A stretch of DNA of 44,038 nt from a virus, in the IMG/VR virus record IMGVR_UViG_3300021962_008254, positions 1-44,038 of that record; one strand, 5' to 3'. The notes under the pieces were generated by a model. The model was given only the letters and a program-made list of their open reading frames with translations, did no database searches and was not told where the DNA came from. The translations under genes and the position numbers were made by a program. Each line of letters starts with the position of its first letter. The stretch's first letter is position 1. Positions 1,064 to 18,800 of the stretch are shown in pieces.

Positions 1064-1071
1064 TATTTATA
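1064..1071 (-). promoter_or_regulatory. T4-type late promoter TATAAATA
   Basis: An exact match to the T4 late promoter core on the minus strand. With the element at -13 to -6, transcription would begin near 1058, 25 bases before the ATG of the BppU-like gene. It overlaps the last codons of the DUF3050 gene. The presence of a gp33-like late coactivator in the same window supports use of this promoter class. Confidence 0.7.
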
Positions 1072-1798
1072 AGACCAGAGATTCAATATGATCAAATAGT
1101 TTTATCCTGGCATTTATAGCCTCAATCGCTGCTTTTTCTGCCCAAAGAGCCTTGAACGGATCATTCTTGCAAAAATATTCAACTAGCATCTGAGCTTTTG
1201 GGCCGTGATCATCACCATCGACCTCGATATGACGTTCCAAGTAATAGTAAAACTTAGGAGCATCGAGGCTAGAAATATTGAGCTGTCTAAGGATTCGCTT
1301 AAACATTGCTGGGATTATTGTTTCTCTCCCATAGCAAAACGAAGCTGCAACGCAATGGGGTCCTTGATCTATTGTATGGAATGTTGTTTCAACAAATGCA
1401 CGGGACGGTTCCGGAATAACTGCAAAGTCTTTTGCTTCCAAAAACCGAACAATTGCTTCTGTATTTGCTCCAACTTCTTCCATTGCTTGGAGATATAAAT
1501 CAAAATGGCTTATTGAAGATTTACCATCAGGAGTCAAATCAGACTCTTCGCATAATACAATCTCGTTAATCGTTCTTGCTATTGAGCTACGAGTACCAGT
1601 TGTTGGTACCCAAAAATTAGTAGACGGACACGCACTATGCTGTAACGACTTGATCAAACTCATAAAATCCCAAACTGCAAATACATGGTGTTCCATGAAT
1701 ATCCGCAAATCGTCGATTGTTTGGATTGAGTTTGTGACTAATAATGAGTGATTAGATAAAGATTGCTGTTTAGCAATAATACGGGATGTGTCGATCAT
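1067..1798 (-). CDS. DUF3050 family protein, haem-oxygenase-like fold, putative metal-dependent oxidase/oxygenase
   Basis: A 243-residue protein. The true start is taken as the ATG at 1798-1796, which overlaps the radical SAM stop as ATGA; a longer open frame begins inside that gene and is unlikely. Visible family motifs are MEHHVFAVWDFMSL (residues 35-48), RTINEIVLCEESD (75-87), SHFDLYLQAMEEVGA (97-111), and RHIEVDGDDHGPKA (189-202). These are the hallmark blocks of DUF3050, a helical family in the haem-oxygenase-like superfamily, which includes non-haem di-iron oxidases. Candidate ligands are H38, E79, H98, E192, D194 and H198; this assignment is inference. Translational coupling to a radical SAM enzyme suggests both act on one substrate. 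The true substrate is unknown. Confidence 0.7.
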   Translation of the reverse strand: MIDTSRIIAKQQSLSNHSLLVTNSIQTIDDLRIFMEHHVFAVWDFMSLIKSLQHSACPSTNFWVPTTGTRSSIARTINEIVLCEESDLTPDGKSSISHFDLYLQAMEEVGANTEAIVRFLEAKDFAVIPEPSRAFVETTFHTIDQGPHCVAASFCYGRETIIPAMFKRILRQLNISSLDAPKFYYYLERHIEVDGDDHGPKAQMLVEYFCKNDPFKALWAEKAAIEAINARIKLFDHIESLVL

Positions 1799-3105
1799 AC
1801 ACTTGCAATTCCCGTTTCCTTCAATTCTACATCTGAACCAAATAACATCTTGAATCCTGCATTCTGTACGCTTCCATACCATATTTTTTCAACACGGCAA
1901 TTCTTCAGAAATACATCAGTCGGAAAATCAATCGGACATGAACTCTTACATAACCGGCGAACTTGACAATCAGAACAGTGTGTCTTTTTTCTATCCAAAG
2001 CAAGCGATACTATCTTTATCCCTTTGATATTAGATATATGGCCACCATTGTATTTTTCGTGTGTGTGAGGACATAATCTAGCGTTTCCCCTCAAATCCAC
2101 ACTCAATATATCTTTTGCATCAGCTCCGCAATTAGTTGTAATTGTTATTGGAAGCTCATTCTTCACAGATTGCGCAAACTTAATTGCACCAGTATCCCCA
2201 TCAAAAATATTAGATTGTAATATAGGTAAAGTTTTAGATCTTCCGTGCTTCTTCAACTGCTCTATTGCGGCATTCATGTAATCTTCTGTTATTATTTTAA
2301 ATGCTTTCAAATTTTCACCATGTATTACATGCTCAAAACTATTCTTGGAGTCTGTATCATCATATGTTCTACCGAGCGTAAAACTAATCTTACAATTCTT
2401 CAACTGGTTATCAACAGCCAGCTTATAAAAATAATCATTTATATCAAATAGATTAAAGTTTGTATTACTTACTACAGGATTAAAACTATATTGAAATTTT
2501 GGGTACAATAAATCTAGTTGCTTTAATACATCTACAACTTGCGGACGTTGGAATATATCCTCGCCCCGCAATGATTCCTGACCTGGTCCATCGTGACTTA
2601 TTCCCATTGCAACTGGCGACTTCAATTGCTTGAAGAAATCAACATGCTTCTGTCGTAGAGCACTTCCGTTAGTGGAAATATACCACGATATTTTCTCACT
2701 ATCAAAATGGGTCATTATTTTGACCATATCATTCCAATACAAAAATGGTTCTCCACCCCACAATTCAATACGAGTTAGCAGAGACGTATCAAGATACTTT
2801 TCTACCGATTCAAGGAAATCAGGAGTCCAGAAATTCTCTGGTCGCTCACTCGGATCTCCAATATCCTTCTGCATACAGTAGGAACAAGAATAATTGCAAG
2901 CGTGTCCTAATAGAATGCGAAGCCCAACAGGCTTATTAGTTTTTGTTATAACACCGTTTTGAGCTGCTTGCTCAGCATACCATTCTTCGGAGTGGATCGG
3001 TGAAGCGGATAACGACTGTCCTTCCGCGTTTACAATGGAGTTTCTATCGTTGTTATAATAGAATGTTTGACCGGTTTGTTTAATCTCAAATTTAGCAAAA
3101 GACAT
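1795..3105 (-). CDS. Radical SAM/SPASM peptide-modifying enzyme
   Basis: A 436-residue protein. The radical SAM cluster motif is C70-x3-C74-x2-C77 (HACNYSCSYC), followed by GGEP at 117-120 and STNGSAL near 144. The C-terminus has a full SPASM pattern: C326, G340-x4-C345, C377-x2-C380-x5-C386-x3-C390 and C403, giving ligands for two auxiliary 4Fe-4S clusters. SPASM enzymes install thioether, C-C or other cross-links or oxidise side chains in peptides and proteins (RiPP maturases, anSME). The N-terminal 55 residues could be a substrate-recognition part. It lies directly after the 130-residue HxH protein and is coupled to DUF3050. No clear ribosome-binding site precedes the ATG. Confidence 0.88.
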   Translation of the reverse strand: MSFAKFEIKQTGQTFYYNNDRNSIVNAEGQSLSASPIHSEEWYAEQAAQNGVITKTNKPVGLRILLGHACNYSCSYCMQKDIGDPSERPENFWTPDFLESVEKYLDTSLLTRIELWGGEPFLYWNDMVKIMTHFDSEKISWYISTNGSALRQKHVDFFKQLKSPVAMGISHDGPGQESLRGEDIFQRPQVVDVLKQLDLLYPKFQYSFNPVVSNTNFNLFDINDYFYKLAVDNQLKNCKISFTLGRTYDDTDSKNSFEHVIHGENLKAFKIITEDYMNAAIEQLKKHGRSKTLPILQSNIFDGDTGAIKFAQSVKNELPITITTNCGADAKDILSVDLRGNARLCPHTHEKYNGGHISNIKGIKIVSLALDRKKTHCSDCQVRRLCKSSCPIDFPTDVFLKNCRVEKIWYGSVQNAGFKMLFGSDVELKETGIASV

Positions 3106-3122
3106 AATATAAGTGTATTGGG

Positions 3123-3515
3123 TTATGCGTCGTCGATAGCGTGGTTGTGGCTTCGTAATACATTTGCTGCATTAACGTGACCATTGATATAAGATGTTGT
3201 AATCACATCTCCCGCAGAAACAGTACCTGGATCAGAATATCCTCCTAGTATAGAAGTGTCTACATCTCTTGATCCGGTGCTACCATTATTACCGTATGTT
3301 TGAATTCTATCGTAATCAGTGTATCTGTGATAATGTCTCTGAAAAGCATTCATCAACGTGCGCAAGTTATTCACATCGCTTGCTAAAACAGTGTTGTTTG
3401 TGACGAAGCGAGACCTCAGGTTGCTTCTTATGCTCGATTGTTCCGTGCTAAGTTCGTTACCTGTGTCGTTATTTTTTGGATATCCAGCTTGTTGACTTCT
3501 TTCTGATTGAGCCAT
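3123..3515 (-). CDS. Small HxH-module tail protein, candidate modification substrate
   Basis: A 130-residue, cysteine-free protein flanked on both sides by radical SAM genes. It has a polar N-terminus and two related modules: VLASDVNNLRTLMNAFQRHYH (about 43-63) and DVITTSYINGHVNAANVLRSHNH near the C-terminus, which ends AIDDA. The pattern D-x-I-T-x4-N/F-x-n-L-x2-H-x-H resembles the 64-residue protein at 7359-7553. HxH motifs coordinate iron along the trimer axis in the T4 gp37 needle, so a small trimeric fibre part is possible. Its ribosome-binding site, AGGAGG, is the strongest in the cassette, which suggests high expression as expected for a substrate or structural protein rather than an enzyme. 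Confidence 0.65.
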   Translation of the reverse strand: MAQSERSQQAGYPKNNDTGNELSTEQSSIRSNLRSRFVTNNTVLASDVNNLRTLMNAFQRHYHRYTDYDRIQTYGNNGSTGSRDVDTSILGGYSDPGTVSAGDVITTSYINGHVNAANVLRSHNHAIDDA

Positions 3516-3530
3516 ATTCCCCTCCTAAAG

Positions 3531-4652
3531 CTATTTATCCCACTGAATAATCGGGATCGTCTTAGCGCCGGAATTTGGTTTAATTAACCCGTATTGGAAG
3601 CTTTTAAACCCACTCTGTATTAATTTGTGGTAGAACTTACAATTAGATTTTAACATAAACTCAGGGACAAAGTTAAAATCAGGATTAAATTTAAACTTCT
3701 GAACTTCGTTGAAGTAATCGACAAACTTTTGCTCAACTTTATTTGTTGGTTTGATTTCATTAGCAAATTTACCGTATAGCTTTTTCTTGCCGCTCAACAT
3801 CTCATACATTAGTTCAGTAGGATTGAAGTCTTGATCTTTATCAAATATGAAAAACGGATCCCAATCAATATCGGTAGCATCATCAATACTATAAAAGAAG
3901 CGATCGTTGTACAAGTGGATTGCTTCTCTGTATATTTGGTATGTTTTATTATTGTGACTTAGAACGTATGTATTTTGGTAATCATACTTACCTTCTAAAT
4001 CATATCTTGCGTTGGCATCATCTCTAAGATCGTGTTGTAAGCAGTTATACAATCCCCGCTCATTCATCCAATTGACAATCTCCTCTACTTGAGGAGGAGC
4101 AGGTCCGTCTGTTGTTCGTATAATCTTTATTTTAGCAATGTTGTATTTGGAAGCATAATCATTCAACACTTCTATAATCTGTTTGTTTTTATTTGTCTTT
4201 ACAAGGAAGTGGTCGCTGAGACTGATATCCGCCATACCCTTCATTGTAATATTATCCATCAGCGTCTTACGATGAGTTAATACAGCATTATCAGTCATAC
4301 CATATTCAAATATCTCTCCGTGTGATTTGTACCACTCAAATATGTATGGATAATTGAGACGGAGGTACGTTAGATCATCGTTTGTACGAATTACGTAGAA
4401 GTGATCGAACACATCATACCAGCGCTGCTCATCTTTTGTTGATATGATAGAAGGAACGTTCTGAGGAAACGTAGAGAACCCTTGTTTTAACTTATCCTTA
4501 ATATAACAAATCTGACATCCAGCATGACAAGTATATTTGTATGTTGGAGTAAAGTAAAGATCAAACGTTAGAGGACTTAAAGAGTCTTCTCTGAGAAAGT
4601 ACGTAGTATGATCTTGGTATTGCTCAAAGTCTTCTCCGACATATTCACTCAT
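3531..4652 (-). CDS. Divergent radical SAM-like protein
   Basis: A 373-residue protein with a CX3CX2C motif at C42-HAG-C46-QI-C49, near the N-terminus where radical SAM proteins carry their cluster ligands. No GGEP motif is recognisable, and only isolated cysteines occur later (for example NC near residue 209 and SNC near 342), so there is no SPASM domain. It overlaps the stop of the preceding radical SAM gene by 8 bases and is clearly cotranslated with it. It may be a degenerate or specialised partner, for example a substrate-binding subunit of its neighbour, or an active enzyme with a private fold variant. The assignment rests mainly on the cysteine motif and context. Confidence 0.6.
   Translation of the reverse strand: MSEYVGEDFEQYQDHTTYFLREDSLSPLTFDLYFTPTYKYTCHAGCQICYIKDKLKQGFSTFPQNVPSIISTKDEQRWYDVFDHFYVIRTNDDLTYLRLNYPYIFEWYKSHGEIFEYGMTDNAVLTHRKTLMDNITMKGMADISLSDHFLVKTNKNKQIIEVLNDYASKYNIAKIKIIRTTDGPAPPQVEEIVNWMNERGLYNCLQHDLRDDANARYDLEGKYDYQNTYVLSHNNKTYQIYREAIHLYNDRFFYSIDDATDIDWDPFFIFDKDQDFNPTELMYEMLSGKKKLYGKFANEIKPTNKVEQKFVDYFNEVQKFKFNPDFNFVPEFMLKSNCKFYHKLIQSGFKSFQYGLIKPNSGAKTIPIIQWDK
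3532..3539 (-). promoter_or_regulatory. Late-promoter-like GATAAATA upstream of the HxH protein
   Basis: One base from the T4 late consensus (G for the first T). It lies 17 bases before the ATG at 3515, with AGGAGG between them, so the transcript would start at the ribosome-binding site. The same octamer recurs at 509, 12804, 19430, 39570 and 43609. Chance matches are possible in AT-rich DNA. Confidence 0.35.
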
Positions 4653-5709
4653 CTATTCCTACCCAATGTAATAATGAAGGTTTCTGGTTTAATTTGTTCA
4701 TATGCTTAACAAGCACGTTGATGGTTTGATAAAACTTAACGCAGTTTCCTTTTGGCTCTTCGTCAAACATTTTATAGAGATACTTCAAACCGCAATACTG
4801 ACGAGAGATGCAATTAGTGCAACCCGGTCTAATTAGAGACTCTTCATTTCCTTGTCTATACAATTCAATTCCGTTTCTCCATTTACCGACTCTAAATTCA
4901 TCTCGCTTATATTCGAGGAAATCAAATTCAGGATATAGATATCCGTCCGGTCCAAGTATTAGCTTTCCATGGTTGTCCAAATATTGTTTGTCAATATCCG
5001 TATAGTTTCCGTCAATATAACATACAACACCGTTTACATATAAAGTATGTAACATCTTAGAAAAGTCATACATGAATCTATCGAGATTTAAATCATCTAG
5101 TAGAACTTTGAACTTCTGTTTACCGCGATAATGTCTAAGAGGAATCAAGTTAACAACATTACAACGAAGGAGTTTACAAGCATTAACTATTGCTGTAGAA
5201 GTTTCTAAGTCTAATGCTCCGGGCGTAGAGATGGGAACAACAAATTGGAACAAGCAGTTTGTTCGAGTGCCATGCAATACCTTAGCAACAGCTTCTAAAT
5301 CAACCGGGGCTCTATTAATATCTTGATAGTTGAAATCGTAGCTGAAAGTAATCTGACATTTACCGGCCCACTTTTCAAAAAACCAAGCATTCTCTGCAAT
5401 CAACGAACCGTTGGTAGTCATTGCGAACTTACAACCAATCTTTTCCAAGTGGGGAGCTATCTTGTCAAGTATGTGATCCATCTTCTTAACATATAGCATT
5501 GGCTCGCCGCCATGGAAGCTCACATATTGAAGCGGATGCTCGCTCTCAACAACTGCATCCATAAAAGCAACAATATCATTAACAGCTGTACTCTTCATAT
5601 TCTGAGAACCAACATCTTCTCTTATGAATGCTCTATCACAATACACGCAATCAAAGTTACACGTATCGCCAAGATAGATTACTACACTTTTAATGTTAGT
5701 TAAATCCAT
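4645..5709 (-). CDS. Radical SAM enzyme with short C-terminal cysteine (twitch-like) region
   Basis: A 354-residue protein read from the ATG at 5709, which has GAGAAG 5 bases upstream; an in-frame ATG at 5721 lacks such a site. The cluster motif is C17-x3-C21-x2-C24 (DTCNFDCVYC), with GGEP at 67-70 and TTNGSL near 101. The C-terminus has GCTNC, a further C in RQYC, and a final NC, a reduced SPASM/twitch arrangement consistent with one auxiliary cluster. It overlaps the end of the 548-residue radical SAM gene upstream (14 bases) and the divergent radical SAM gene downstream (8 bases). The three therefore look like one translationally coupled enzyme set. Confidence 0.85.
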   Translation of the reverse strand: MDLTNIKSVVIYLGDTCNFDCVYCDRAFIREDVGSQNMKSTAVNDIVAFMDAVVESEHPLQYVSFHGGEPMLYVKKMDHILDKIAPHLEKIGCKFAMTTNGSLIAENAWFFEKWAGKCQITFSYDFNYQDINRAPVDLEAVAKVLHGTRTNCLFQFVVPISTPGALDLETSTAIVNACKLLRCNVVNLIPLRHYRGKQKFKVLLDDLNLDRFMYDFSKMLHTLYVNGVVCYIDGNYTDIDKQYLDNHGKLILGPDGYLYPEFDFLEYKRDEFRVGKWRNGIELYRQGNEESLIRPGCTNCISRQYCGLKYLYKMFDEEPKGNCVKFYQTINVLVKHMNKLNQKPSLLHWVGIDE

Positions 5710-7342
5710 GGTTCTTCTCATTAAATATCATAGTGGAAATCAATTGCAAATAAAATACTCTTATCTCAGGCGTATCTCCATCAACAACTTTTGGTAACAT
5801 ACCAGTTCTTTTGGCTAACGATCTATACAACTCAACTGCTTCCATCTCACCACTATCGTTCGATTCTCCACTTATGTGCGACCAAATATCTAATAAAATT
5901 TGCTTATATGGTTTATATTGTTTATCTTTAGAAGGATCGAACATTACTCTATGGCCAGTCTTCAAGTACTCCAACATATAGTCAGCTCCAGCTGCTATTG
6001 TTTGCTGCTCACCTTCAAGTTGTAGTTGTTGGAGTCTAATTTCAAACAAACGACGAAATTGTTTCTTTGCGACATCTGCTTGTAGATCAAGATATAACTT
6101 TACAATCTCTTGACACATATCATCTGGTCTGAACATACGTGGACCAGTATCAATATTACCAGCCGGACATTGGTAACACATACTTTGATAATCACAAGCC
6201 TTGCATTGCTCTTCTACTTCAAACATCTCGTTGTAGATTTTCTGAAACTTTATGTAACGGTCTACATACACTCTATCTTGTAATATGTTACCGAGGATAG
6301 TTTCGTGAGCAGCAGCTTTTTGGTTTGTAAAGAAATAACAACCTGAGAAGTCTCCACTACCATCAATAGCAATCATATCAGAACCAACCATACAGTTGTT
6401 ATCTTGCTTCTCTCCTACTCCCTCACTAAACAACACGGTCAAGTCTTGATACTTGTCTAAACATCCGAGTATTGCCTCGCGCATCATACTCCAATTATCC
6501 TTACTCCATTTAATATACCCGCGTTTTGAGTCGAGAACTAAAGGGTGAATAATTAAACGCTTAACTCCCTTTGAGTAAATTGATTCTATAAATTCGTGTA
6601 GACTATCAGCAGTCTCTTCAGATAATGTACAGCGGATTGTCAGTCTTGCTCCGACGTTCGGTATCTTAGTGATACGTTCAACATTGTGAAGGATTGTATC
6701 TAATTGCTTTTGTGTGATCTCTCTGTAGTCTTTTTTGAGATCCATTGTATCGAGGCTAATCAACATATACGTGTACTTTTTGTTAAAGTACATATCAATA
6801 AAATCATCATCTAGTAACAACCCATTCGTACAAATAGAGATCCCTGTACCAATATAATTATTCCAATTAGCGTTCAACTCTTCATCATACGTCTTAATGA
6901 AGTCTTGAATTAGTGGTTTGTGTATTAGTGGCTCGCCTCCGAAGAACTGGAGAATCTTTAACGGCTGTTTGTTAATATTGCTGAGCCAGTCGTATGATTG
7001 CTTTACAGATTCAACCGTGAATCTACCATAATCTTTTTTATGCTGTTCGTAACAATAGCTACAGCTCAAGTTACAAGCATTTGTCAGCAACAAATTCATA
7101 TGAATTAAATTACTGAATAGATGCTTTGCTTGATCAAAACTCTTTACTTGTTCCTCTTCCGACGGAACAATAGTTATTAGTTTATTTTGTTTTTCTAAAC
7201 CGGCAGGGGTAATAATTGTATCGACGGTTGTCTTCAACGTACCATCTTCCAGCTGAACTACTGTTGCAGCATGATTGGCAATACGTTCTTTTTGAGCATC
7301 ATTTAATGTTCTGTATATTTTTACTACGTTCACTTGACTCAT
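5696..7342 (-). CDS. Radical SAM/SPASM maturase
   Basis: A 548-residue protein. The first 80 residues precede the barrel and contain DGTLKTTVDT, and could be a recognition domain. The cluster motif is C90-x3-C94-x2-C97 (NACNLSCSYC), with FGGEP near 134-138 and CTNGLL at 171-176. The SPASM pattern is C317, G330-x4-C335, C380-x2-C383-x5-C389-x2-C392 and C410. Beyond it is a helical C-terminal extension of about 130 residues, longer than usual for RiPP maturases. It starts 16 bases after the 64-residue C-x-C-x-C protein, the layout usual for a maturase next to its precursor peptide. The reaction type (thioether, C-C or other bond) cannot be told from sequence. Confidence 0.88.
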   Translation of the reverse strand: MSQVNVVKIYRTLNDAQKERIANHAATVVQLEDGTLKTTVDTIITPAGLEKQNKLITIVPSEEEQVKSFDQAKHLFSNLIHMNLLLTNACNLSCSYCYEQHKKDYGRFTVESVKQSYDWLSNINKQPLKILQFFGGEPLIHKPLIQDFIKTYDEELNANWNNYIGTGISICTNGLLLDDDFIDMYFNKKYTYMLISLDTMDLKKDYREITQKQLDTILHNVERITKIPNVGARLTIRCTLSEETADSLHEFIESIYSKGVKRLIIHPLVLDSKRGYIKWSKDNWSMMREAILGCLDKYQDLTVLFSEGVGEKQDNNCMVGSDMIAIDGSGDFSGCYFFTNQKAAAHETILGNILQDRVYVDRYIKFQKIYNEMFEVEEQCKACDYQSMCYQCPAGNIDTGPRMFRPDDMCQEIVKLYLDLQADVAKKQFRRLFEIRLQQLQLEGEQQTIAAGADYMLEYLKTGHRVMFDPSKDKQYKPYKQILLDIWSHISGESNDSGEMEAVELYRSLAKRTGMLPKVVDGDTPEIRVFYLQLISTMIFNEKNHGFN

Positions 7343-7358
7343 GTTATAATCGATTCAT

Positions 7359-7553
7359 CTATAGCGAACCGCGTCCACACTGACACTCACAATTAGTTGA
7401 ATAATCATCATAGAATGTATGGCCATGACTGACCAACGAATCTACAATATCCAACATTTGGGTGAAGTGGGCAGCCGTGATCGTATCTACGGTTGTCTTG
7501 GTACCTTGGGCGCCGGTCCCTGACGTAAATGTCGATGTTGTATCTGCTGTCAT
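7359..7553 (-). CDS. 64-residue HxH protein with C-x-C-x-C tail, candidate radical SAM substrate
   Basis: Three parts are visible: a Thr/Gly-rich leader (residues 1-20), a module ITAAHFTQMLDIVDSLVSHGH (25-45) followed by TFYDDYSTN, and a C-terminal tail CECQCGRGSL with C55, C57 and C59. The middle module matches those in the 130-residue protein at 3123-3515. The cysteine tail is absent there and is unusual for a cytoplasmic phage structural protein. It lies immediately upstream of a SPASM radical SAM gene and has a good AGGAG site before ATG. A modified tail-fibre component or RiPP-like precursor is inferred. Alternatives are a metal-binding tail tip or a fibre connector with no modification. 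Confidence 0.65.
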   Translation of the reverse strand: MTADTTSTFTSGTGAQGTKTTVDTITAAHFTQMLDIVDSLVSHGHTFYDDYSTNCECQCGRGSL

Positions 7554-7554
7554 T

Positions 7555-8523
7555 TCATACTCCTAAAAGAATATATTCTAATGTTATTTTTCTATCTTCT
7601 GCTGTTACATATTGTTTTGTCATATCAATACAAGGGGTTATAATTTTTATATAACCAACACCGGGCTGTCTTTTAACTCTAATAACGTTATCAACCACAT
7701 TATATTCCCATGAACATTCTACTGTAAAATCTAAATTCTCAACACCACGGAGAGTTGTATATTGTATTATGGACGCCCCTCCAATAGCAAGCTCCAGTTC
7801 TCCCCTATTTACAACAATAGTATTATTATTAATAAGATTGCAGTTTAGTCTGGGAGCAAAAGCAAACCACGGTACAATATTAGAAAAACTAGCACAAGCT
7901 GCTACACTTCGTTGCTCATTAACGCTTCCAAGTTCTCCATGTAAACTAACAATATTAGGATTCACAACAAGGATGTAAGCGTTTGTTCTTCCCAATTTAA
8001 AAGCGACAAATAACAACAGGGACTTAACAGGACTATCCAATCCACACAGTTCATTTGTATCAGCAAACAACAATCTATATTGATCGTCTCTAACAATATA
8101 ACGTGAGTCTCGTAAGAGAGCAGTTTGGGTGACTGGTTCATCTCCTTCAACTAACATTCCCAAAGCACACCATCCTTTTTTATCTAAAGTGCGCTCGAGA
8201 AAATCTAAATCTATTATTCTACTATTATACTCATCTCGCAATACTTCCGGAATATATGATTGCGTAATTGTTGCACCATCTTTATGTTTTACAACAGCAA
8301 GAGACGTTACATCTTTATCAAACTGCATTAGCGTTTGACCGTGATGCCATTGTTTTATATAATGATGTTTTGATTCAGGAACAAGTGTTTTATTAACAGG
8401 AACGGTATAATATCTTTCCTCCGTTTCTGATTTTACCACAATCGGAGTAAGATTCACACTATCCGCTATACGTTCCCAATCAGGAGGTCTACTTTGGGCA
8501 CGTGTAAAAAGCCAATGCTTCAT
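7555..8523 (-). CDS. Unknown protein of the radical SAM cassette
   Basis: A 322-residue protein starting MKHWLFTRAQSRPPDWER. It has no signal peptide or membrane segment. The C-terminal half reads as beta-rich (TLRGVENLDFTVECSWEYNV, then VGYIKIITPCIDM), and could be an Ig-like or jelly-roll domain of a virion protein. The start overlaps the preceding 198-residue gene as ATGA, and the stop lies one base before the start region of the small Cys-tail protein. The tight packing ties it to the modification genes. I do not recognise a family; a structural partner of the small HxH protein or a carrier for modification are both possible. Confidence 0.6.
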   Translation of the reverse strand: MKHWLFTRAQSRPPDWERIADSVNLTPIVVKSETEERYYTVPVNKTLVPESKHHYIKQWHHGQTLMQFDKDVTSLAVVKHKDGATITQSYIPEVLRDEYNSRIIDLDFLERTLDKKGWCALGMLVEGDEPVTQTALLRDSRYIVRDDQYRLLFADTNELCGLDSPVKSLLLFVAFKLGRTNAYILVVNPNIVSLHGELGSVNEQRSVAACASFSNIVPWFAFAPRLNCNLINNNTIVVNRGELELAIGGASIIQYTTLRGVENLDFTVECSWEYNVVDNVIRVKRQPGVGYIKIITPCIDMTKQYVTAEDRKITLEYILLGV

Positions 8524-9116
8524 AATCCCTTAATATATTGAATTACTTCTTGAGAAGTAGCTCCATCAAAAAATTTATCATATTGTTGTTGATTTTCTCT
8601 CATCCAGCTATTATGAGCTTCAGATAAATGCAGCGCTGCTTCTTTTGCAATTCGCTCGTGCTCTTCCATATGCTCTATTCCAAAATCTTGGGGATTGACA
8701 GCCCAACCAATAAAATGATCAACGCCTTTGGGCTTGTAACTCACGGCAGGATATACCAATAACGTCTTTTGATCTGCAGGAAGTTGTTGAATAACATATG
8801 GAAATAATTGATCGAATATTTTTTCAAAACAAAAGATAAATTTTGATTGCAATGTTCCATCTTCAGCTGCTTGTAATATGGTCGTAGCAAAATTTCCTTG
8901 CTGCCATTGGTCTCCTGCACCTTGTCCGTATATTTCTGGATGTTGTCTGGCGACGTCTATTAAACGATCTTTTATCTCACGAGAAGTATCGCCTTGAAAA
9001 AGAGCTCTGCGCTGATGAAGCGATTCGATAAAAGAATTCTGCTCAGAAGTATTAACGACTTGCTGTACATTGAAAGCTGTTTGGGATTCTAATGTATGAG
9101 ATAATAAAATAACCAT
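8520..9116 (-). CDS. Unknown protein of the radical SAM cassette
   Basis: A 198-residue, mostly helical protein starting MVILLSHTLESQTAFN. It contains a central segment KFIFCFEKIFDQLFPYVI and a charged C-terminal helical region rich in E, H and Q. It has a single cysteine and no recognisable catalytic motif. A ribosome-binding site AAAGGT precedes the ATG. An exact TATAAATA late promoter lies inside the upstream B12-radical SAM gene (9232-9239), giving a leader of about 110 bases. The stop overlaps the next start (ATGA). I do not recognise it; its fixed place between the B12 enzyme and the other cassette genes suggests an accessory role. Confidence 0.6.
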   Translation of the reverse strand: MVILLSHTLESQTAFNVQQVVNTSEQNSFIESLHQRRALFQGDTSREIKDRLIDVARQHPEIYGQGAGDQWQQGNFATTILQAAEDGTLQSKFIFCFEKIFDQLFPYVIQQLPADQKTLLVYPAVSYKPKGVDHFIGWAVNPQDFGIEHMEEHERIAKEAALHLSEAHNSWMRENQQQYDKFFDGATSQEVIQYIKGL

Positions 9117-9139
9117 GTTTTTACCTTTTATTATTTTAT

Positions 9140-11191
9140 CTATTTTTTTGGATATGACACTTTTATTTTTTCAAAAAGTTTTGTCCCATTCATATTCGAA
9201 CAAATAGATAAAAAATGTTGTTTTATTCGTGTATTTATATCTGTCATTTCACCCCAAAGCACTAAGTCGTTTGGTTGGTATGTTGTTGGTCGTTTAACAA
9301 AAACGCCATTGGTCCTGTATTTTGACCAATCATATTCAGTAGAAAAAGTATATTGATTAGGGGTGTAGTTTATATTTTTAATCATAGAAGAAGTATATAC
9401 AATTAAATCATCCCGAATCGGATCTTCACCAAACTGCATGTTACACCATCTAGCAAGTGCAATATAAAACGCTTTAATATTACTATACAGCATAATGTTA
9501 AACAATGGGCCAGCCAAGCAGCGAACTTGGAATGGGAAGTTTTCCGGAACATCGAAGTATTCAAAATCAACAGCTTCGTCTTTTTGTATTTTTTCTAAAC
9601 CCTGCTGCCACATAGATTGAAGCAAGATATTCTGAGTAGGTGTAAGGCCATTTCCTTCTGCAAAAAGAAAAGAATCCCACAACTTTCTATAAAATACGCT
9701 ATGAGGAATACCGGTACTAGCCATGTATTTTGTAATAGAAGAAAGTAACTCTCCAACTTCTGCTTGGTGAACAACATAGTCCATTAAAAACATTGTCAGC
9801 CATTCTTCTTTAGAATAAGACATCGTCTCAATTACAATTTCTGTAGGACACATCCATTCCGGATCAACTACAAGATCTCGAGCAACATTTAAATTTTCAA
9901 CAAAATGCTTTTTTAAAATTGTAAAGGTACCATCGTTCGTACTTCTCATACCAAAGCTTGTTTTCAGAGTTTGTATTTTAAATTTTTCTCGATACTCTGC
10001 TTTTGATGCTGGCGTTGTAGGTAGCAAGTGCCAAACATACCTCTTGCCAAACGTATCCATTGTACACGAGTAATCTAAGGCTTCGTAGTAACTATCTAAA
10101 GTAGCACCTGGCAAGCCAAGAATCATCTCGAGTCGGATTTTGCCACCATGCTTTTCTCTAATCTTAATATAGTTTTCTAATTGCAATTTCCAATCTTCAT
10201 CTGTTCTGTCAATATTCTTCAACACATCTCTGTTTAGATCTTGTACAGGGACTTTGTAGTCGGAAAGCATTCCATATTCTGCTGTCAGAGATTCAATCTC
10301 ATATACGTTGTGTTTGTTGACTTTTGACGGGCCAAAGAAGTACATAATACTAGGAACCGAAGCACGTTTTCTCCATGCACATATATGTTTAATAATGTCA
10401 ACATCTCGGTCAATAATTCCGAAATTGGCGTCTGTAAATGAAAAGAAAAATGGCTTTACATAACCAAGTATAAAATCTATATCTTCTATAATTAACTCAG
10501 TTGGTTTGAAAGTGACCTTAGAATTGATCCCCCCACCCCACTCACAATAAGTGCAACCAAATGGACATCCTCGCGACGTCTCATAAGCTACGTAGAGTTT
10601 TTTATTTTCTTTAATTGATTTTTCTATACGACGATCGATGTAGGCCTTGTTGTGTTTGTAAATTCGAACAGGCCATTTAAAATCTCGTTTGTAGAAACTT
10701 GCAAATGATTCTTTCCACATTCCGTTGTGCGGATATATGCAGTATGGGACTTGGGTAAGATCAGGAGTCGGTTGTTCGAGTTGGTACAAGTACTCCGTAA
10801 GGAATACCTCACCATAACCATCTTCTTTACATACAGCATCGATAAAATTATTTACTTTAAAGTAATTAATATCTTCTTTGTATGTTATGTGAGGACCCCC
10901 TACAATAATCTTGCAATTAGGGAGTTTGTTCTTTACTTGTTTTGCTATCTGTAGAGATAGTCCAACGTTCCAAACGTAAAGAGAGAATCCTAGAACATCA
11001 GGTTTACGTTCTATAATTTCATTAACGAGATCGTCTACGTGAAAAGCATAAGACTCAGTGATTGGATCTAACCATTCCCACTGAGTCTTGTGTTTATTGT
11101 TTTCTTCGAAGTACGATTTGAGAGTTAACCAAGCATAATCAATTCCAAGAACCTCTGCGGCCATGGAATAATTCACAAATTGTATTTTCAT
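9140..11191 (-). CDS. B12-binding-domain radical SAM enzyme
   Basis: A 683-residue protein. Residues 1-140 fit a Rossmann-like cobalamin-binding domain (IQFVNYSM, then PDVLGFSLYVWN, then KIIVGGPHITY). The radical SAM motif is C209-x3-C213-x2-C216 (SRGCPFGCTYC), followed by segments typical of class B enzymes (FSFTDANFGI, LEMILGLPGATLDSY). No DxHxxG motif is visible in the B12 domain, which is common in this class. Many relatives are methyltransferases acting on unactivated carbon or phosphorus; others do ring contraction or other chemistry. The C-terminal 250 residues are not assigned. It follows the 491-residue tail fibre directly, with no clear ribosome-binding site, so it is probably coupled to fibre translation. 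Confidence 0.85.
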   Translation of the reverse strand: MKIQFVNYSMAAEVLGIDYAWLTLKSYFEENNKHKTQWEWLDPITESYAFHVDDLVNEIIERKPDVLGFSLYVWNVGLSLQIAKQVKNKLPNCKIIVGGPHITYKEDINYFKVNNFIDAVCKEDGYGEVFLTEYLYQLEQPTPDLTQVPYCIYPHNGMWKESFASFYKRDFKWPVRIYKHNKAYIDRRIEKSIKENKKLYVAYETSRGCPFGCTYCEWGGGINSKVTFKPTELIIEDIDFILGYVKPFFFSFTDANFGIIDRDVDIIKHICAWRKRASVPSIMYFFGPSKVNKHNVYEIESLTAEYGMLSDYKVPVQDLNRDVLKNIDRTDEDWKLQLENYIKIREKHGGKIRLEMILGLPGATLDSYYEALDYSCTMDTFGKRYVWHLLPTTPASKAEYREKFKIQTLKTSFGMRSTNDGTFTILKKHFVENLNVARDLVVDPEWMCPTEIVIETMSYSKEEWLTMFLMDYVVHQAEVGELLSSITKYMASTGIPHSVFYRKLWDSFLFAEGNGLTPTQNILLQSMWQQGLEKIQKDEAVDFEYFDVPENFPFQVRCLAGPLFNIMLYSNIKAFYIALARWCNMQFGEDPIRDDLIVYTSSMIKNINYTPNQYTFSTEYDWSKYRTNGVFVKRPTTYQPNDLVLWGEMTDINTRIKQHFLSICSNMNGTKLFEKIKVSYPKK
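9232..9239 (-). promoter_or_regulatory. T4-type late promoter TATAAATA inside the B12-radical SAM gene
   Basis: An exact late-promoter octamer on the minus strand near the 3' end of the B12-dependent radical SAM gene. Transcription would start near 9226, 110 bases before the 198-residue gene. It would drive the remainder of the cassette late in infection. It lies in coding sequence, so chance occurrence is possible. Confidence 0.45.
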
Positions 11192-11192
11192 A

Positions 11193-12668
11193 TCATAAAA
11201 TTACAGCCTCAATCAGCCCTTCTTTTGTAAAGTCTTCATAATCTTCTAGTGCAATAGCAAAGTAGTTAATTGCACTCATTGCTGCGACGCCCGGAATAGC
11301 ACTTGCAGCTAATCCTTGGCCTTTTTTAACTAATCCAAGCACACGAACAGGCACACGACCTTTTAATGCAACTGGAACGCCACCTTCTAAGTCTTTATTC
11401 ATTAGATAAGCCGGTTTATCAGATATTGTACCTAAAGCGCGAATGTAGTCAATAGCCGTATATGCAGTAACTTCTTTTGAGCCGCCAACTTTAACAACTG
11501 TTCCTACTGGATAATCTTGATCAGCCAAATACATCTCAGCCAAGTCAGCATATCGAGCTGCGGTTGCTGTACCAACAAACAAGTTGGTAGTAATATTTCC
11601 ACTACTATCTCTTAATGCTACCGTACTTCCAATAGAAGTTAGGGCTCCAGGATATGCAGTTCCGCCAAATAAGATATTATTAGATTGAGTAATTGTACCA
11701 CTAACGTTTGATGTTAGAGTGCCAGAAGATATTGTAATGTTGTTGACAGTTACAACGTTAGCAGAGAAACTACCATTAGCATCTCGTGCTACAAGAACGC
11801 TTGCTGTGGCAGCTGCTGAAGCATTAGCATTCAATGTGATGTTTGTCGATAATGTTCCACCACCAGACATATACGAACCAGCAGTTACTGATCTTGATAA
11901 AGTATTAGCATTGCCAGTGACGTCCCCTACAATATAAACCCCACTGCCCACCCCGGCTCCTAGTGTAACGTTTGCAGCTGCAGTAATTGCGTTTGCTATT
12001 AACGTGCCTTGTACAGCAACGTTTGCAACAGCAAACACATATTGGGAAGCATCGTATCCGAGGTAGCGTAAGTTTGTATTACCAAAGAACAAATAACCGC
12101 TATTGGGAACACTCGATAGAGTTAGAGTTGTATTTGCTTGGATGTTGACGTTAGCGCCAAGAGTAACAACACCAGAAAACTTAGCATTACCAGAAACGTT
12201 TGCAGTACCAACTACAGACAATGTTGCGTCAGGCGATCCAGTATTAACCCCTAAACGACCTGCCGTATTAATAAAGATTGTATTGCTCTTGAAGTTAGCA
12301 TTTGAGGTAACAGTAAGAGTACCACCGCTAATTGTTGTAACAGCAGAATCAATAACAACGTTAGAAGACGATAAGTTGAAGTTTGTAACAGATCCACCAA
12401 CGTTTGCTCCTGAGAATACAACGTTAGATGTAATTGCAAGGTTGGCTGCGGTTGTTACAGTACCGCCACGTAGACTTTCCCCCACAGCAATTACGTTAGC
12501 AGAAAATATTCCATTAACACTTGCGTTACCAGCCGTCAACCCGCCAGCAGTATTAGCAGCGGTAGTGACAACGACGGTAGATACCTTATCCAATACTTGA
12601 TTGGTTTTATCCAACCAGTTTTGGAATGTATCTGTAGATAAATTTACGTTAGCGATTGATACCGACAT
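11193..12668 (-). CDS. Tail fibre protein with conserved C-terminal domain
   Basis: A 491-residue protein. The N-terminus (SIANVNLSTDTFQNWLDKTNQ) is the attachment-type segment seen in fibres of aquatic T4-like phages. Residues about 40-365 are low-complexity beta repeats rich in N, T, S, V and G (for example SNVVFSGANVGG). The last 120 residues form a distinct domain: ARYADLAEMYLADQDYPVGT, then GRVPVRVLGLVKKGQG, then AIALEDYEDF. This C-terminal block recurs on many phage fibres and resembles trimerisation/intramolecular-chaperone heads. The start overlaps the 72-residue gene upstream by 20 bases. It is probably a side or long tail fibre and, by position, a candidate target of the modification cassette. 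Confidence 0.78.
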   Translation of the reverse strand: MSVSIANVNLSTDTFQNWLDKTNQVLDKVSTVVVTTAANTAGGLTAGNASVNGIFSANVIAVGESLRGGTVTTAANLAITSNVVFSGANVGGSVTNFNLSSSNVVIDSAVTTISGGTLTVTSNANFKSNTIFINTAGRLGVNTGSPDATLSVVGTANVSGNAKFSGVVTLGANVNIQANTTLTLSSVPNSGYLFFGNTNLRYLGYDASQYVFAVANVAVQGTLIANAITAAANVTLGAGVGSGVYIVGDVTGNANTLSRSVTAGSYMSGGGTLSTNITLNANASAAATASVLVARDANGSFSANVVTVNNITISSGTLTSNVSGTITQSNNILFGGTAYPGALTSIGSTVALRDSSGNITTNLFVGTATAARYADLAEMYLADQDYPVGTVVKVGGSKEVTAYTAIDYIRALGTISDKPAYLMNKDLEGGVPVALKGRVPVRVLGLVKKGQGLAASAIPGVAAMSAINYFAIALEDYEDFTKEGLIEAVIL

Positions 12669-12867
12669 TTTGTGCTATCTGTCCTAAAAGTTGTTTAATA
12701 TCGCTGAGGTCTTGTTTTAACATATCAACTTCAGCCTTTAATGTTTGGTTGCTTACAATGGTGTTGCGTTGCTGTTTATACAAATCATATGCTGTCTTAT
12801 TTGTATTTATCAGCGCGGTAGTATCCTCATCGCGCATAAAACTGGCGTCGTTTGTTTTGATAAGCAT
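12649..12867 (-). CDS. Small coiled-coil tail protein
   Basis: A 72-residue protein starting MLIKTNDASFMRDEDTTALINTN. Its second half, with LKAEVDMLKQDLSDIKQLLGQI at about 43-64, is a clear heptad-repeat coiled coil. Small proteins of this form lie between the large baseplate proteins and the fibres in T4-like phages of aquatic bacteria. It has a good ribosome-binding site (AAGGTGAGGG) and overlaps the fibre start downstream. A GATAAATA octamer at 12804-12811 inside it could start transcription of the fibre. The likely role is a fibre connector or assembly factor; this is inference from size, coiled coil and position. Confidence 0.6.
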   Translation of the reverse strand: MLIKTNDASFMRDEDTTALINTNKTAYDLYKQQRNTIVSNQTLKAEVDMLKQDLSDIKQLLGQIAQNVGINR

Positions 12868-12875
12868 CCCTCACC

Positions 12876-15800
12876 TTATACTGATACCGCTAACACTCGA
12901 ACATCATTCAATGTTGGCACCAAGTAATTGTATGGAGATAACAATACAATCTTTACTGCCATGTATTTGTATGTATCAAATGCAGCATTGTTTGAATCGT
13001 GGTAGCGAGTAATATAATTGTTACGTGTATATTTGAACGCAGCCTTCTTCTGGGTTACAAGCTCAATCGTGTTACCAGTCCCAGTAAACGATGTGTTAGA
13101 TGTTACTTGTAGTGACGTATTATTCGCTACAGATACAACAGGGAACAAATCATAGTCTGTTAATGTGTTGGATTTAACAATCTTGACCAAATCCCCAGCA
13201 ACAACTGTTGTAGAGAATGTAGTATCTACGCCTGTAATAGTAGTGTTCGAGTATGTTGTAACGACCCCAGACAATAATGTTGATGGAGGAGTTTTAGGGA
13301 ATGTGTACTCATATTCTCTATAGTCTTCCTCATTCAATGAATCACTGTATATGGCACCAGATGTCACTTGATCCATCAATGTCCAGTCTTTATCCTCAAA
13401 TGCCTCTCCATCCGTGAAGTTAAGGATCTTAGCATACACTTGAATTGTAGTACCGCTTGGCTTATATGCTGTAATGAATATTTTAGCATCCTCCGCATCT
13501 AAACCGTCAGCTAGCGCAATACGCTTGGAGACATACTTAGATGTAGCACTACCAAAACGACCGGTCTCATTAGTATAATCGTTATTGACTAAGTTTCTTG
13601 TCAGAACAACACTTGATGGGTTCATATCCACTAATGGAGATATGTCAGTAGTTGCTCCTGACATTTGCAAGTCAGCAGTGAATGATTTTGTAATTGTAGA
13701 TCCTACAATCTCATTAGACTTACTCTTAATGATAGCATCATCTCCCAGATCCAATCTGCTTGAAGCAGTTAAGAAGTAAGATTTAGTGTCTGTAGAACCA
13801 GCATTGGTTGTTAGTGTTCCAACCAACGAAACAGTTGTACCAGGTATTTGTAATGTATTAATTAATGGTCTAAAGATATTAGCTTTTATGTTATCGACTG
13901 TACTTACAACACCAAGCGCTTGACTTGTATCTCCAACGATCGTACCTCTATAAGCAGAGTTAGATGTTTGAATCTTGAACGTATCATTAGCAGACGTTGA
14001 AGAACTGATATAGATCTTTGTATTACCATAATCGTAAGCACTCACAACACCACGAACTACTTTTTGACCATTAACAATAATAGAAGCATTGCTTGTTAAC
14101 TTAGGTACCTTATTAATAGTAATTGTGGAAGAGTTGGCTGCAGTTACGCGGCTAACATCAAACACAGGATCCATACGGTAATGAGTTGAGTTAGAAGCAC
14201 TAGTGCTCAACGCAGAGTCAATTGTTATCGATGTTGAGTTAGTGACAGCAACAACTTGTCTGATATCGCTACCAATGCGGATGAAATCCCCAGCGGAATA
14301 TTCTGTAACGAAGTCTGTTGTTTGACCGCCGCCATTAGAAACAGTAACAGTCGTTACATTAACATTACCAGTACCTATAGCAGCATTATTAGAATACACA
14401 AACAATACATTATCGCCAACTGATAGAGCAGCCGCTTGACTTGAGCTTGTACCTACAACAACGTTCGCTACATTAGTCGTAAAAGTACCACTCAAATATG
14501 TGTTACTTAATTGCGCAACAGTTTCGCCCCCAGTAAAGTATCCTTCTGTATTTGCTAGTGTTAGGAACTCATAATCTCCGTTGTGTACTTTTGCTGTACC
14601 ACTTAGATTATTAAACAGAGCGCGCTTGACTGTAAACTTCAAGTCCTCGTCTTGTACTGGCGTCCAAGCTGTACCAGAAGTTGAATAGAACATCGTTCCC
14701 AGTCCCCAGTTCTGGTTACTGATCAACGAAGTGTTGGCTACGTCTTTAACGCCTGTCTCAGCCGTCCAAATCGTATATTCAGGAGAGTTAGCATCAGGGT
14801 AAATGACGATTGCATAGTCCGTTTCTGTTTTCAGATATACAGGAGAAGCAAACGTAAATGAAGTTGCATTTGAAGCTGTCTCGCTTACGCTAACGTTTGC
14901 AGGGGACAGTCGTGTACGAGAGAAAGGAACAATAATATGTGAAGGTACACCATTATTTGTTTCGCGTAATTCTAAGGTAACGCCTTGCGTTGCATCCTTC
15001 GCCCTAAAGAATACATCAATGCCAGTAATGAATACGCCATCAGTATCAGCCAATTGACGTTGCACTCTAAACGTTTGTGATAGAGGGTCCGGACGTTCAA
15101 ATCTTACTTTATCAGAAACAACATAGGTGTTTGTATAGTTAGCTACTCCAAACGAATTATCATACGTTACATCAATAGTCTTCGTAGAGAGTGATAGGTT
15201 TGTTTTGTTAACACCATAAGCGTACGCTACAAATGAACCAACGGCTTTAGATGTAGCTGATGTCTCCGAAGCTGTAGCATCGACGTCCATAATAACAACA
15301 TTACGCTCACCAACAAAGAATGTACCGCCAGGAAGGTCGATATAACCAGCTAACTGACCATTATCGCCCGCTACTAATGCAGCCCCCTTCGCTCCAGTTA
15401 CAGTAAATGAATTTTCCGTAACATTTGTAAAGACAGTTATGCTGGCTGGTGTGACGTAGCTCGATACGTTGACGTTATCGAAGAACACGTAGTGGGTTGC
15501 TCCTGGACGTAATCCAGCTGTAAAGAAGTATATTCTTTGTTCCCGTATGTAAGGTCTCAACGTAAAGTCAGTAACATAATCCCCGAGGTTCTGTTGAGTA
15601 ATTAACTCTTGACCAGGATTGATTTTGACTTTTGTATCTGTAAACGTTTTAAGAACGTCTTGCTCAAATACACGGTTCGTACCATTCATACCAACAAATA
15701 TTGCATTACCAACGTTAGCCACGCTGTCTAAGTTGGTAGACACGTTAAGTTGGGAAAGCGCACTACTTGTTGCTCTAGCCAATGCATTCAACGGAGTGGC

Positions 15801-18800
15801 AATATCAACAGTAATAGATACACCCTTGCGTGTAATATCATAGTAGTTGTCATAAGGAGGATACAAACTAACGTTTGCTTTATACTTCCAGAACTGATCA
15901 ACAAGAGTACGAATCTTATTTGCTATCGGTTGTTGTACGAGATTTTTCTCTGTAAAACTTAGCGTTACAATATCTCCCGTCTTGGTAGTATTTGTGCTAT
16001 TAGCCGAATCGTAAACTAAATCAATTTTTACATCGCTGAAGTTTGGTCTAGCAACTCCTTTGTTTGTGTCAATAATAACACTATACTCAGCATCGTTAAG
16101 ATTGGATACGTTGTAATCTGTCAATGGATCAACAAAGAAGCCGTTTTTAAATCTTTCGATTGAGCTATTTGCTTCTCCAGGCAACACAAGTTGCTTAGTA
16201 TTTTGCTCTAGAGTATTCAGTAGAGCATAATACTCTAGTCTATTAATACGACGCTCGATGTCGGAAATATCCTTCATCGTATAGCGTTTGTTTTGCATCG
16301 GGTTAATATAAACACCGAGATCAGTACGGCTCGAATCAGCTGCATCTTTAGCAGATAAGCTAGGATACGGTGCTACATTGACCATACCAATTGTCATTGT
16401 GCCTTTAGGCTCTGAAGGACCAGAAGGGTTGTTTGCAGGAATGCCTTCTGTTACAGTAATACCACCGTATGTGTCAATTACTACTCTATCTTGTCTTGCC
16501 AGATATGAGTTTACGCTAGCGGTAAATTCTCTTGTAGGAGAAGGAAAATATTTCTCTGCGGAAGCAAATGTAATTGTCGTAGATGGATCGATTGTAGCTC
16601 CTGCAACTGCAGTTGCATTTACGTTTGCCGTATTAGAGCAAATAGGTCTAAAGTCAATTACATCACGCAAGTCATATGCTTTACCAGTTTTTGGAGATGT
16701 GTAAACAGGAACGTCTTGCGTACGAATCTTATTAGATGGTAATGGCTCTGTAGCATCATCGATCGCTGAAGCGTATGATTCTGTAGAGATGTATTTGCCA
16801 ACACCATGTGTGAATGCTTTCAACGATACTAACAAGCAGTTTGTATTAGCAATTGCTAGCGTTGAGCCTGGACGCTTCTTCAAATATGACAAACCATAAT
16901 AGTTGTCGTTCTGACCGCTATCTAAGAAGAATTCGTTTACGTAGTTTGTTGTTGTGTTGCTATATGTGTTAGCAGAGCCGACGTATACTCCAGTTACTTC
17001 ATATGCATCAGGAATACCTAAGCACCATGGTCCGGTTGTAGATGTTGTTGTAGCAGCTGTGGACAGCTTAACAAACACTGGGCTTTTAACTGTCTTAACT
17101 TTAACAGCTGGGCTTTCATTTTGAATATCATGGTAGATAGAAACTGTACCAGTTCCTGTTAGACCGTGGCCAAGATTCAACGTCAGTGTTGTTTGTGTTC
17201 CATCAATAGCAATTGATTTTCCTGCTTGGTTCTGGAAATCGATTGGAACGTTTGCTGGATAAGCAATAGTATGAACGTTTGCAGACAAAGAAGCAGCAAA
17301 GTTGTTAGCCACTTGAATAGATGTATTGCTTGAAATCTTAACAATACGTAATGGATCTTGTGTACCAACTTTAATAAACTGACCAACAGAATATTCGGAA
17401 GTGAATAATGTACTTGTACCAGTTACAGTATTTGCACCGCTTGTTGTAGCAACAGTTCCAGTCTTGTTTGTTGAAGAAACAAGAGTTGTCTGAGGGATAA
17501 CAATGAAGTCGCGTTCTTGTACGCTATTCAATGTCGATCCAGCAGAATATGGAAGAGTATTACCACCAGAGAATGATGTGCTTAAGGTTCCCCCAACCGC
17601 AAATGCAGCGTTAGTCTGTGATCTACTAATGAACGTTTCGTTTGTAAGAGTTTGAACACCAAACGTACCAGTATTAAAAATCAACGAATCATACTGGATG
17701 TCGTTTATTACAGCTAAATTATCAGCGTTCAATACAACGTCCGCGACACCGACGCCAGCAACTGCAATAGATCTTACATCTTTGAACGAGAACCCTGAGC
17801 TCATCTTCACATCATAAATGTAAAGTCTATATTGGCAATCAGGAGTACCTGGAGTGCCGGCATCAAATACCAATGAACGTACTTGAGCTGTACCAATCTG
17901 GGTACCAGGAGTCGTAGGAGAGCCTCCGGCATTATCTGATAAGTCTGTTCCTGCTGTACTACGTAGCGTGACAGTCGTTCCTAACTTAATATCAAAGTTA
18001 CCAAGCAATTCTTTAACATAAACGTAGCCACCATAGTTGGTAGATATTGTTTGCGCATCGTTAGTAATCGTATTAGTTGACTTACGTAGAGGAATCTTAG
18101 TATTATTGTAAATTTGAACGCGATTGCCTTCCACGTATGCTAAACCAGCACCAATCACCAAATTCAAATGGGTTGTGTTTCCGCTAATCGATTCAGTGTA
18201 CATCGGAATCGGATCCACAACATAATTACCTGACTCTTCAAATGTTCTCTTAGAGAGTTCTTTGTTGATCGAATTAAATTGTGTAGTGGTTCTGTCCTTA
18301 ATAATTCTTCCGTTTTCAAACTCATACAATGCAAGGAAGTCATTATTAGATGCAGCGTTAGCAGTCGAAAGAACAACTAGGTTAGCAGTAAGTTTTAGAC
18401 GATCAGCACCAGGAGCTGTGTAGTTAGTAGAGTTATTAGCATTATCCAGCAATGTCTGATCGGAGTTGCTGTTAACAACTGCCTCTGTTGTATGGAAGCC
18501 AATTACGACGTTATTTGGTGATGTGTTATACTTGGATACAACTTCCTCATGCGAGCCAACACGAATAAAGTGGCCCTTTTGATAGATAACCCCCTCGGAC
18601 GTTTTAACTGCATAACCACGTCCTGTTGGTGCTGTGTACAGGCTATTAGCAACAGCGATCTGAGCGAGATAGTTGAACGATGTTAAATTAGCCCCAGAGC
18701 CTGTGCTTGTTGTTACTGTGACTGTTGGAGAAGTAGTATATCCACTACCATTATCTGTAATCTCAATTGACTTAAGCGTACCGTTAGCGTAAGTAGTAAC

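Follow-up and report, generated by a model that had tools for sequence, protein, structure and literature searches.

The sequence analysed here (the window) is a 44,038-base stretch of one IMG/VR virus record, IMGVR_UViG_3300021962_008254, which carries in its late tail region a cassette of radical S-adenosylmethionine (SAM) enzymes beside a small protein with a cysteine tail, s64. PHROG matches to baseplate wedge proteins, a PAAR protein, a gp32-like single-strand binding protein and a DNA end protector identify the window as a fragment of a T4-like myovirus. By the gp6-like wedge protein, its closest cultured relatives are Caulobacter phage Cr30 and Sinorhizobium phages (~38% identity). An earlier interpretation without database searches (the sequence-only reading) had described ten genes in a late minus-strand block amid tail-fibre genes, and all ten are present at that place and on that strand, in the order B12-rSAM, p198, p322, s64, rS548, rS358, rS373, s130, rS436 and DUF3050. 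The block lies in a T4-like baseplate operon, between a tail-fibre-like protein of 491 residues upstream (11193-12668; phrog_19602 tail fiber, E 2e-7) and a homologue of the L-shaped tail fibre assembly protein downstream (704-1033; phrog_3304, E 3e-24); these two genes and all cassette genes described below are on the minus strand. The start/stop overlaps claimed in that reading were confirmed, at four junctions: p198/p322 (4 nt), rS548/rS358 (26 nt), rS358/rS373 (8 nt) and rS436/DUF3050 (4 nt). An identical cassette (100% identity) is present on an 86,561-base IMG/VR contig.

The most informative feature of the cassette, on which the sequence-only reading did not remark, is the CxCxC-x-RG tail of s64 (7359-7553). 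This putative substrate of 64 residues consists of an HxH helical module (HGHTFYDDY) followed by the C-terminal cysteine tail CECQC-GRGSL, and its C-terminus reads ...HGHTFYDDYSTNCECQCGRGSL. In the alignment of relatives reached through rS436 and rS548, HxH and D[DN][YF] were invariant and were followed by the tail C(xC)n-x-RG-x-x. The family comprises 46 distinct sequences, all with the ending C(xC)2-5-x-RG; three cysteines were counted in the tails of 7 proteins, four in 4, five in 33 and six in 2. No cysteine precedes the tail in any of these proteins, and the spacers are exclusively Q, N, A, E or D. Synonymous codons are mixed at the tail cysteines (TGT 123, TGC 91), indicating that the cysteine residue, not the DNA, is conserved. 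No signal peptide was visible in s64 by eye.

CX3CX2C motifs were confirmed in five proteins, three of GGEP type, one of B12 type and one divergent, as the sequence-only reading had it: rS548 (C90NLSCSYC), rS358 (C21NFDCVYC), rS436 (C70NYSCSYC), rS373 (C42HAGCQIC) and B12-rSAM (C209PFGCTYC). GGEP is found in rS548, rS358 and rS436, and these three and B12-rSAM scored above the Pfam Radical_SAM cut-off. The two full SPASM cysteine sets were likewise recovered, and both are invariant in relatives. That of rS436 (1795-3105) is canonical (C326-x13-G-x4-C345 ... C377-x2-C-x5-C-x3-C390 ... C403), and that of rS548 (5696-7342), with seven SPASM cysteines (C317-x12-G-x4-C335 ... C380-x2-C-x5-C-x2-C392 ... 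C410), shows a single spacing change, CX2C in place of CX3C. Only the last four SPASM cysteines are present in rS358 (4645-5721; C301-x2-C-x5-C310...C327), which is therefore twitch-like. The divergent protein rS373 (3531-4652) lacks GGxP and had no Radical_SAM match in Pfam. It is a probable member of the superfamily because its CX3CX2C is invariant in 29 aligned sequences and its predicted fold (predicted local distance difference test score, pLDDT, 93) is nearest to MoaA in the PDB (probability 0.99, E only 1.3e-3).

Among NCBIfam families, rS548 matched best the PapB ranthipeptide maturase (NF047865, E 3e-34), and the alignment runs the full length of the PapB core and the SPASM region. 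The next matches included nif11-peptide, CXXX-repeat (E 2e-22) and SCIFF maturases, all below equivalog cut-offs. The AlphaFold model of rS548 (mean pLDDT 83) had as its best PDB match CteB (5why, a thioether-forming SCIFF maturase; E 3e-15), followed by SkfB, ChlB, anSME and SuiB. All of these matches are SPASM-type enzymes that modify peptides or proteins. By sequence family (PapB) and by modelled fold (CteB), the closest relatives of rS548 are thioether-forming peptide maturases.

The s64 signature and the enzymes occur together far beyond the window. A degenerate DNA pattern for HxH-D-[DN]-[YF]-x3-CxCxC, blind to the enzymes, was run over 2.9 million viral contigs and matched 50 of them. 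All 50 encode rS548: 43 were already in the rS548 search list, and 7 were confirmed by whole-contig search at E<1e-160. Of 25 matches to a shorter DNA pattern, one (L035) had no open frame of 40 residues across the match, was missed by the longer pattern and was treated as chance. We also compared 31 loci that were picked for s64 with an uncut neighbourhood, p322 not being a selection criterion. A conserved SPASM-gene neighbourhood with the 64-residue family, which the sequence-only reading had suggested looking for in phage genomes, was evident: six genes (s64, p322, rS548, rS358, rS373 and rS436) recur in 31 of 31 loci, usually overlapping, often by 4 nt, and the enzyme order rS548-rS358-rS373-rS436 is constant throughout. 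The usual order in relatives is a fibre gene, s130, s64 and p322 (either order) and then the enzymes. The carriers are varied, since some of their contigs are fragments and others reach 190, 280 and 379 kb. These results indicate that the linkage of the s64 tail with the enzyme set exceeds chance.

The constant partner of s64, p322 (7555-8523; 322-residue type), gave no match in Pfam or PHROG. Its family was detected in every one of the 31 loci though identity drops to 11-23%, and it normally adjoins s64; at one locus (L091), where s64 has moved to the opposite end of the cassette, p322 has moved with it. The fibre-like protein s130 (3123-3515; phrog_31780), usually upstream of s64 in relatives, contains two HxH modules, compared with one HxH motif in s64, and has no cysteine. 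Its C-terminal module is homologous to the HxH module of s64 (hhalign 95.5%, E 1.4e-8). In T4 gp37, iron is bound by such motifs, and marine phage fibres are reported to contain them (PMC11705849). No homologue of s64 or s130 was found among proven virion proteins; both genes lie in tail operons. The cassette holds no recognisable peptidase, transporter or exporter gene, and so there is no sign of a secreted peptide. The shared module, the operon and the absence of an exporter point to a likely virion role for s64. The sequence-only reading had likened both small HxH proteins to RiPP precursors (RiPP, ribosomally synthesized and post-translationally modified peptide). This fits s64, with its cysteine tail, fibre-like body and co-occurrence with the enzymes, but was dropped for s130, which has no evident substrate character.

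The remaining genes of the block are accessory. The haem-oxygenase-fold (CADD-like) DUF3050 protein named in the sequence-only reading was verified (PF11251, 243 bits against a cut-off of 22.2, E 4e-72; solved relative PDB 9vwb, E 3e-65). Its gene occupies 1067-1798, the start at 1798, which forms an ATGA overlap with the rS436 stop, being preferred over that at 1882 because relatives begin there. Several Glu, His and Asp residues, including a HIxxDGxxHG segment, are invariant across 14 relatives. They appear to agree with the ligands modelled in PMC4520260, the literature source for a CADD-like di-iron fold of DUF3050. DUF3050 is missing from the 379-kb and 191-kb contigs, placed elsewhere in contig G013 and doubled in L098, and is therefore regarded as accessory. 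It is mobile within the cassette; the duplicate copies lie at L098:15076-16690, and in L096 it stands between rS548 and rS358 (11710-12447). A link between DUF3050 and tail type (present with CECQ/CQCN, absent with many CNCN tails) is confounded by shared ancestry and fails in three loci, L096, L089 and L098. The B12-binding radical SAM protein (9140-11191; KedN5-like C-methyltransferase family) and the co-occurring p198 (8520-9116) mark mostly the subclade with three-cysteine tails; L079 also has a B12-rSAM relative, downstream of rS436. Presence and absence across loci rejected B12-rSAM, p198 and DUF3050 as core genes. The sequence-only reading had treated the cassette as one modification unit, and this holds for the four radical SAM enzymes with s64 and p322, but not for B12-rSAM and DUF3050. 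Elsewhere in the window, positions 42805-43257 encode a 150-residue protein with a signal-peptide-like start and an outer-membrane beta-barrel-like sequence, and positions 40167-40622 a cytidylyltransferase-like nucleotidyltransferase (GAFDLFHAGH) near gp32, possibly a surface-sugar or cofactor gene.

The rS548 profile was also searched against one genome per species for 84,980 bacterial and archaeal species and matched a single contig, in an Alteromonadales metagenome-assembled genome (MAG). This contig is most simply a phage contig because it carries fibre and tail-assembly genes itself. None of 294 further genomes from the same order carries rS373. No description of such a phage cassette was found in open-licence papers, preprints excluded, so that it may be described elsewhere; to this extent the sequence-only reading was right that the system is not known.

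From what was observed (which genes are present and in what order, how they co-occur and are conserved, their homologies and their predicted folds), we propose the following route. As first made, s64 would be a small protein of fibre-like type, its HxH helical body followed at the C-terminus by a C(xC)n-x-RG tail. rS548 would bind s64 and modify the tail, most likely by Cys-thioether cross-links or related radical modifications, and rS358, rS373 and rS436 would act as its partners in further steps on the same cysteines. In some clades, DUF3050, as a di-iron-fold oxidase, and the B12 radical SAM methyltransferase may add extra steps. Once modified, s64 would be assembled together with p322 into the baseplate or tail fibre, where it would serve as a tip or adhesin. 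At the sequence level, the arrangement is that of a RiPP locus, with a putative precursor gene adjoining a maturase gene and the core residues conserved. On this basis, s64 is very probably the substrate of the radical SAM enzymes, and we consider it likely that it is a virion component. Thioether chemistry on its tail is about evenly balanced between true and false, and a receptor-binding or metal-binding role of the modified protein is speculative. The cassette as a whole is, on balance, best regarded as a RiPP-type maturation system that the phage carries and whose product it keeps, and dozens of uncultivated phages probably remodel part of their own tail chemically. The sequence-only reading had already proposed that the phage modifies its own tail proteins; the precursor-plus-maturase logic inside a tail module supports it in part, whereas modification and presence in the virion are what we infer from that logic.

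Several observations weigh against this interpretation. PapB joins Cys to the Asp or Glu of a Cys-X3-Asp/Glu motif and tolerates various spacings (PMC9413430). The score of rS548 against the PapB equivalog, 118.6 bits, lies well below the cut-off of 340, and no fixed Cys-X3-Asp/Glu acceptor is present in the 46 s64 tails, where acidic residues have no fixed positions; PapB chemistry is for these reasons not transferable to rS548 and s64. At its N-terminus (~36-76), rS548 has a short element of two strands and a helix with mixed model confidence, and the CteB match covers 453 columns with limits in the query not given; neither establishes a leader-binding RRE domain. Three rS548 relatives above ~34% identity had no visible s64: two (L075, L092) lie too near contig ends, and the third, L094, has a 758-residue frame in a 17-kb locus without s64. 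In 50,697 annotated phage records, searches with s64, s130, rS373 and two rS548 variants yielded no orthologues and only remote SPASM proteins, so that no cassette phage is among those records. Finally, HxH motifs by themselves are common in fibres and are no proof of virion location.

Two other explanations accept part of this picture. s64 may be modified as proposed and yet give a non-structural product: a peptide that stays in the cell or is released and targets the host, for example to take it over, to exclude rival phages or to counter its defences. RiPPs are commonly bioactive, phages carry small host-takeover proteins, and s64 has just 64 residues. However, its module is common to the fibre-like s130, its genes sit in tail operons of diverse phages, no signal peptide was visible by eye, and no exporter or protease gene lies alongside; we consider such a product unlikely. 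Alternatively, the cysteine tail together with HxH and DDY could form a metal- or Fe-S-binding tip, the radical SAM enzymes being co-inherited in the tail module and directed at another tail protein, a sugar or a cofactor. The iron-binding HxH of T4 gp37 and the HxH motifs reported in marine phage fibres (PMC11705849) agree with this, CxCxC tails could chelate metal, and the radical SAM cluster of Campylobacter phage CP220 adjoins sugar-nucleotide genes with no Cys-tailed protein in the stretch read. Against it, the cysteine tail is tied to the enzyme set in 50 of 50 contigs, rS548 falls among maturases of Cys-rich peptides, and PapB-like enzymes accompany other kinds of Cys-rich tail in other phages. 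An unmodified metal tip of this kind appears, if anything, slightly more doubtful than a released peptide, and modification and metal binding are not mutually exclusive.

A metabolic role would instead make the radical SAM genes auxiliary genes that aid Fe-S or cofactor metabolism of the host. This is how T4-like ocean phages that carry as many as 12 radical SAM genes (PMC5332604) and, as an Fe-S or host-metabolism reading, the clusters of Campylobacter phages CP220 and CPt10 (PMC2853527) were earlier interpreted. In the cassette, the gene order is fixed with s64, p322 and fibre genes, the families are those of peptide maturases rather than metabolic enzymes, and the genes lie in phage contigs and not in the 294 further genomes of the order of the single MAG match. 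We therefore regard a metabolic role as very improbable.

If phages do modify s64 and carry it in their tails, they add radical-chemistry modifications to these structures beyond genetically encoded assembly, as bacteria do in RiPPs. This could account for the large number of radical SAM genes in some T4-like ocean phages, hitherto read as Fe-S metabolism. It could also represent a new layer of host-recognition chemistry, possibly linked to metal-uptake receptors, and a source of new maturases whose substrate is repetitive and simple to score.

Other, unrelated phages follow the same logic, which supports the proposed route: their distant SPASM loci adjoin different Cys-rich proteins (L118, L119, L126, L104/L114, L101, L117, L120, L122, L105 and L116). 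PapB was the best family for 10 of 10 enzymes scanned there, with an additional weaker CXXX-repeat match in L120. Of 139 genes no more than 2.5 kb from a radical SAM gene, 16 encode a Cys-rich C-terminus, compared with 2 of 175 at a greater distance (p 9e-5), a count that serves as description only because its criterion was fixed after a first look. A prophage-like tail module at L118:5569-12680 contains Baseplate_J, Mu gp48, a 133-residue Cys-repeat protein, a tail-collar fibre, a PapB-like SPASM enzyme and a 507-residue protein with a Cys-rich N-terminus. Very long QCxxCQxCxxC tails are found in a 994-residue protein at L126:1723-7066 and an 847-residue protein at L119:3000-7241, each followed by a free Cys-repeat open reading frame and a PapB-like SPASM enzyme; the enzyme of L126 itself starts with repeats of this type. 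Seven radical SAM-like genes surround two small proteins with Cys/Gln/Asn-rich tails, one with a HINELR-type module, at L122:2116-13188. The proteins at L104:11296-12120 and L114:11282-12430 end in NGRCxxxCQxxCxxxCQxSCQGCNxxQCHxQHCGS and lie directly downstream of a PapB-like enzyme. A remote SPASM match among the annotated phage records, from a gut sample (L179), was left out of account; the Cys-rich peptide that accompanies it resembles the SCIFF precursors of bacteria. There may be a general, unrecognised class of "virion RiPPs", in which dedicated SPASM enzymes of tailed phages and prophages cross-link the Cys-rich tails of tail or fibre proteins ahead of assembly, so that the tips become chemically hardened or bind receptors; we hold this to be as plausible as its opposite. 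The window cassette would be one lineage of the class, and L101, L104/L114, L117, L118, L119/L126, L120 and L122 independent others.

Among known systems, PapB-type ranthipeptide maturation (PMC9413430) is similar in that rS548 aligns over the PapB core and SPASM region and a Cys-rich substrate lies beside the enzyme gene. The cassette differs from it in an rS548 below the equivalog cut-off, in the alternating CxC of s64 with no fixed Cys-X3-Asp/Glu, in its four radical SAM enzymes and in its setting in phage tail modules. The six-cysteine ranthipeptide system of SCIFF and CteB shares with it a small Cys-rich precursor, and CteB is the best structural match of the rS548 model. In contrast to s64, the SCIFF precursor has no fibre-like body; it is a short peptide with a single maturase, and the system is found on the chromosomes of bacteria. 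CXXX-repeat target maturases (NCBIfam TIGR04115, TIGR04119), to which rS548 and the L120 enzyme are weaker matches, also pair repeating-Cys targets with SPASM enzymes, but with another repeat period and another gene set. We know of no tail-module context for them. The iron-binding HxH fibres (T4 gp37; alterophage R22Y, PMC11705849) have HxH in fibre-like proteins of marine phages, whereas neither a Cys tail nor a radical SAM cassette is described for gp37 or R22Y. CP220 and CPt10 (PMC2853527) resemble the window in having several radical SAM genes in a single block of a T4-like phage, soon after baseplate-lysozyme and PAAR genes. The cultured CP220 (L182; 11 radical SAM genes) was considered as a cultured example and rejected; its cluster (10691-19274) lies among amidinotransferase and sugar-nucleotide transferase genes, and the stretch read contains no Cys-tailed protein. 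It is perhaps a different, glycan-type system, and because of this block, phage radical SAM clusters are not all of the Cys-tail kind. The overlap of the window cassette with RiPP systems is clear, and what is new is its viral-structural setting.

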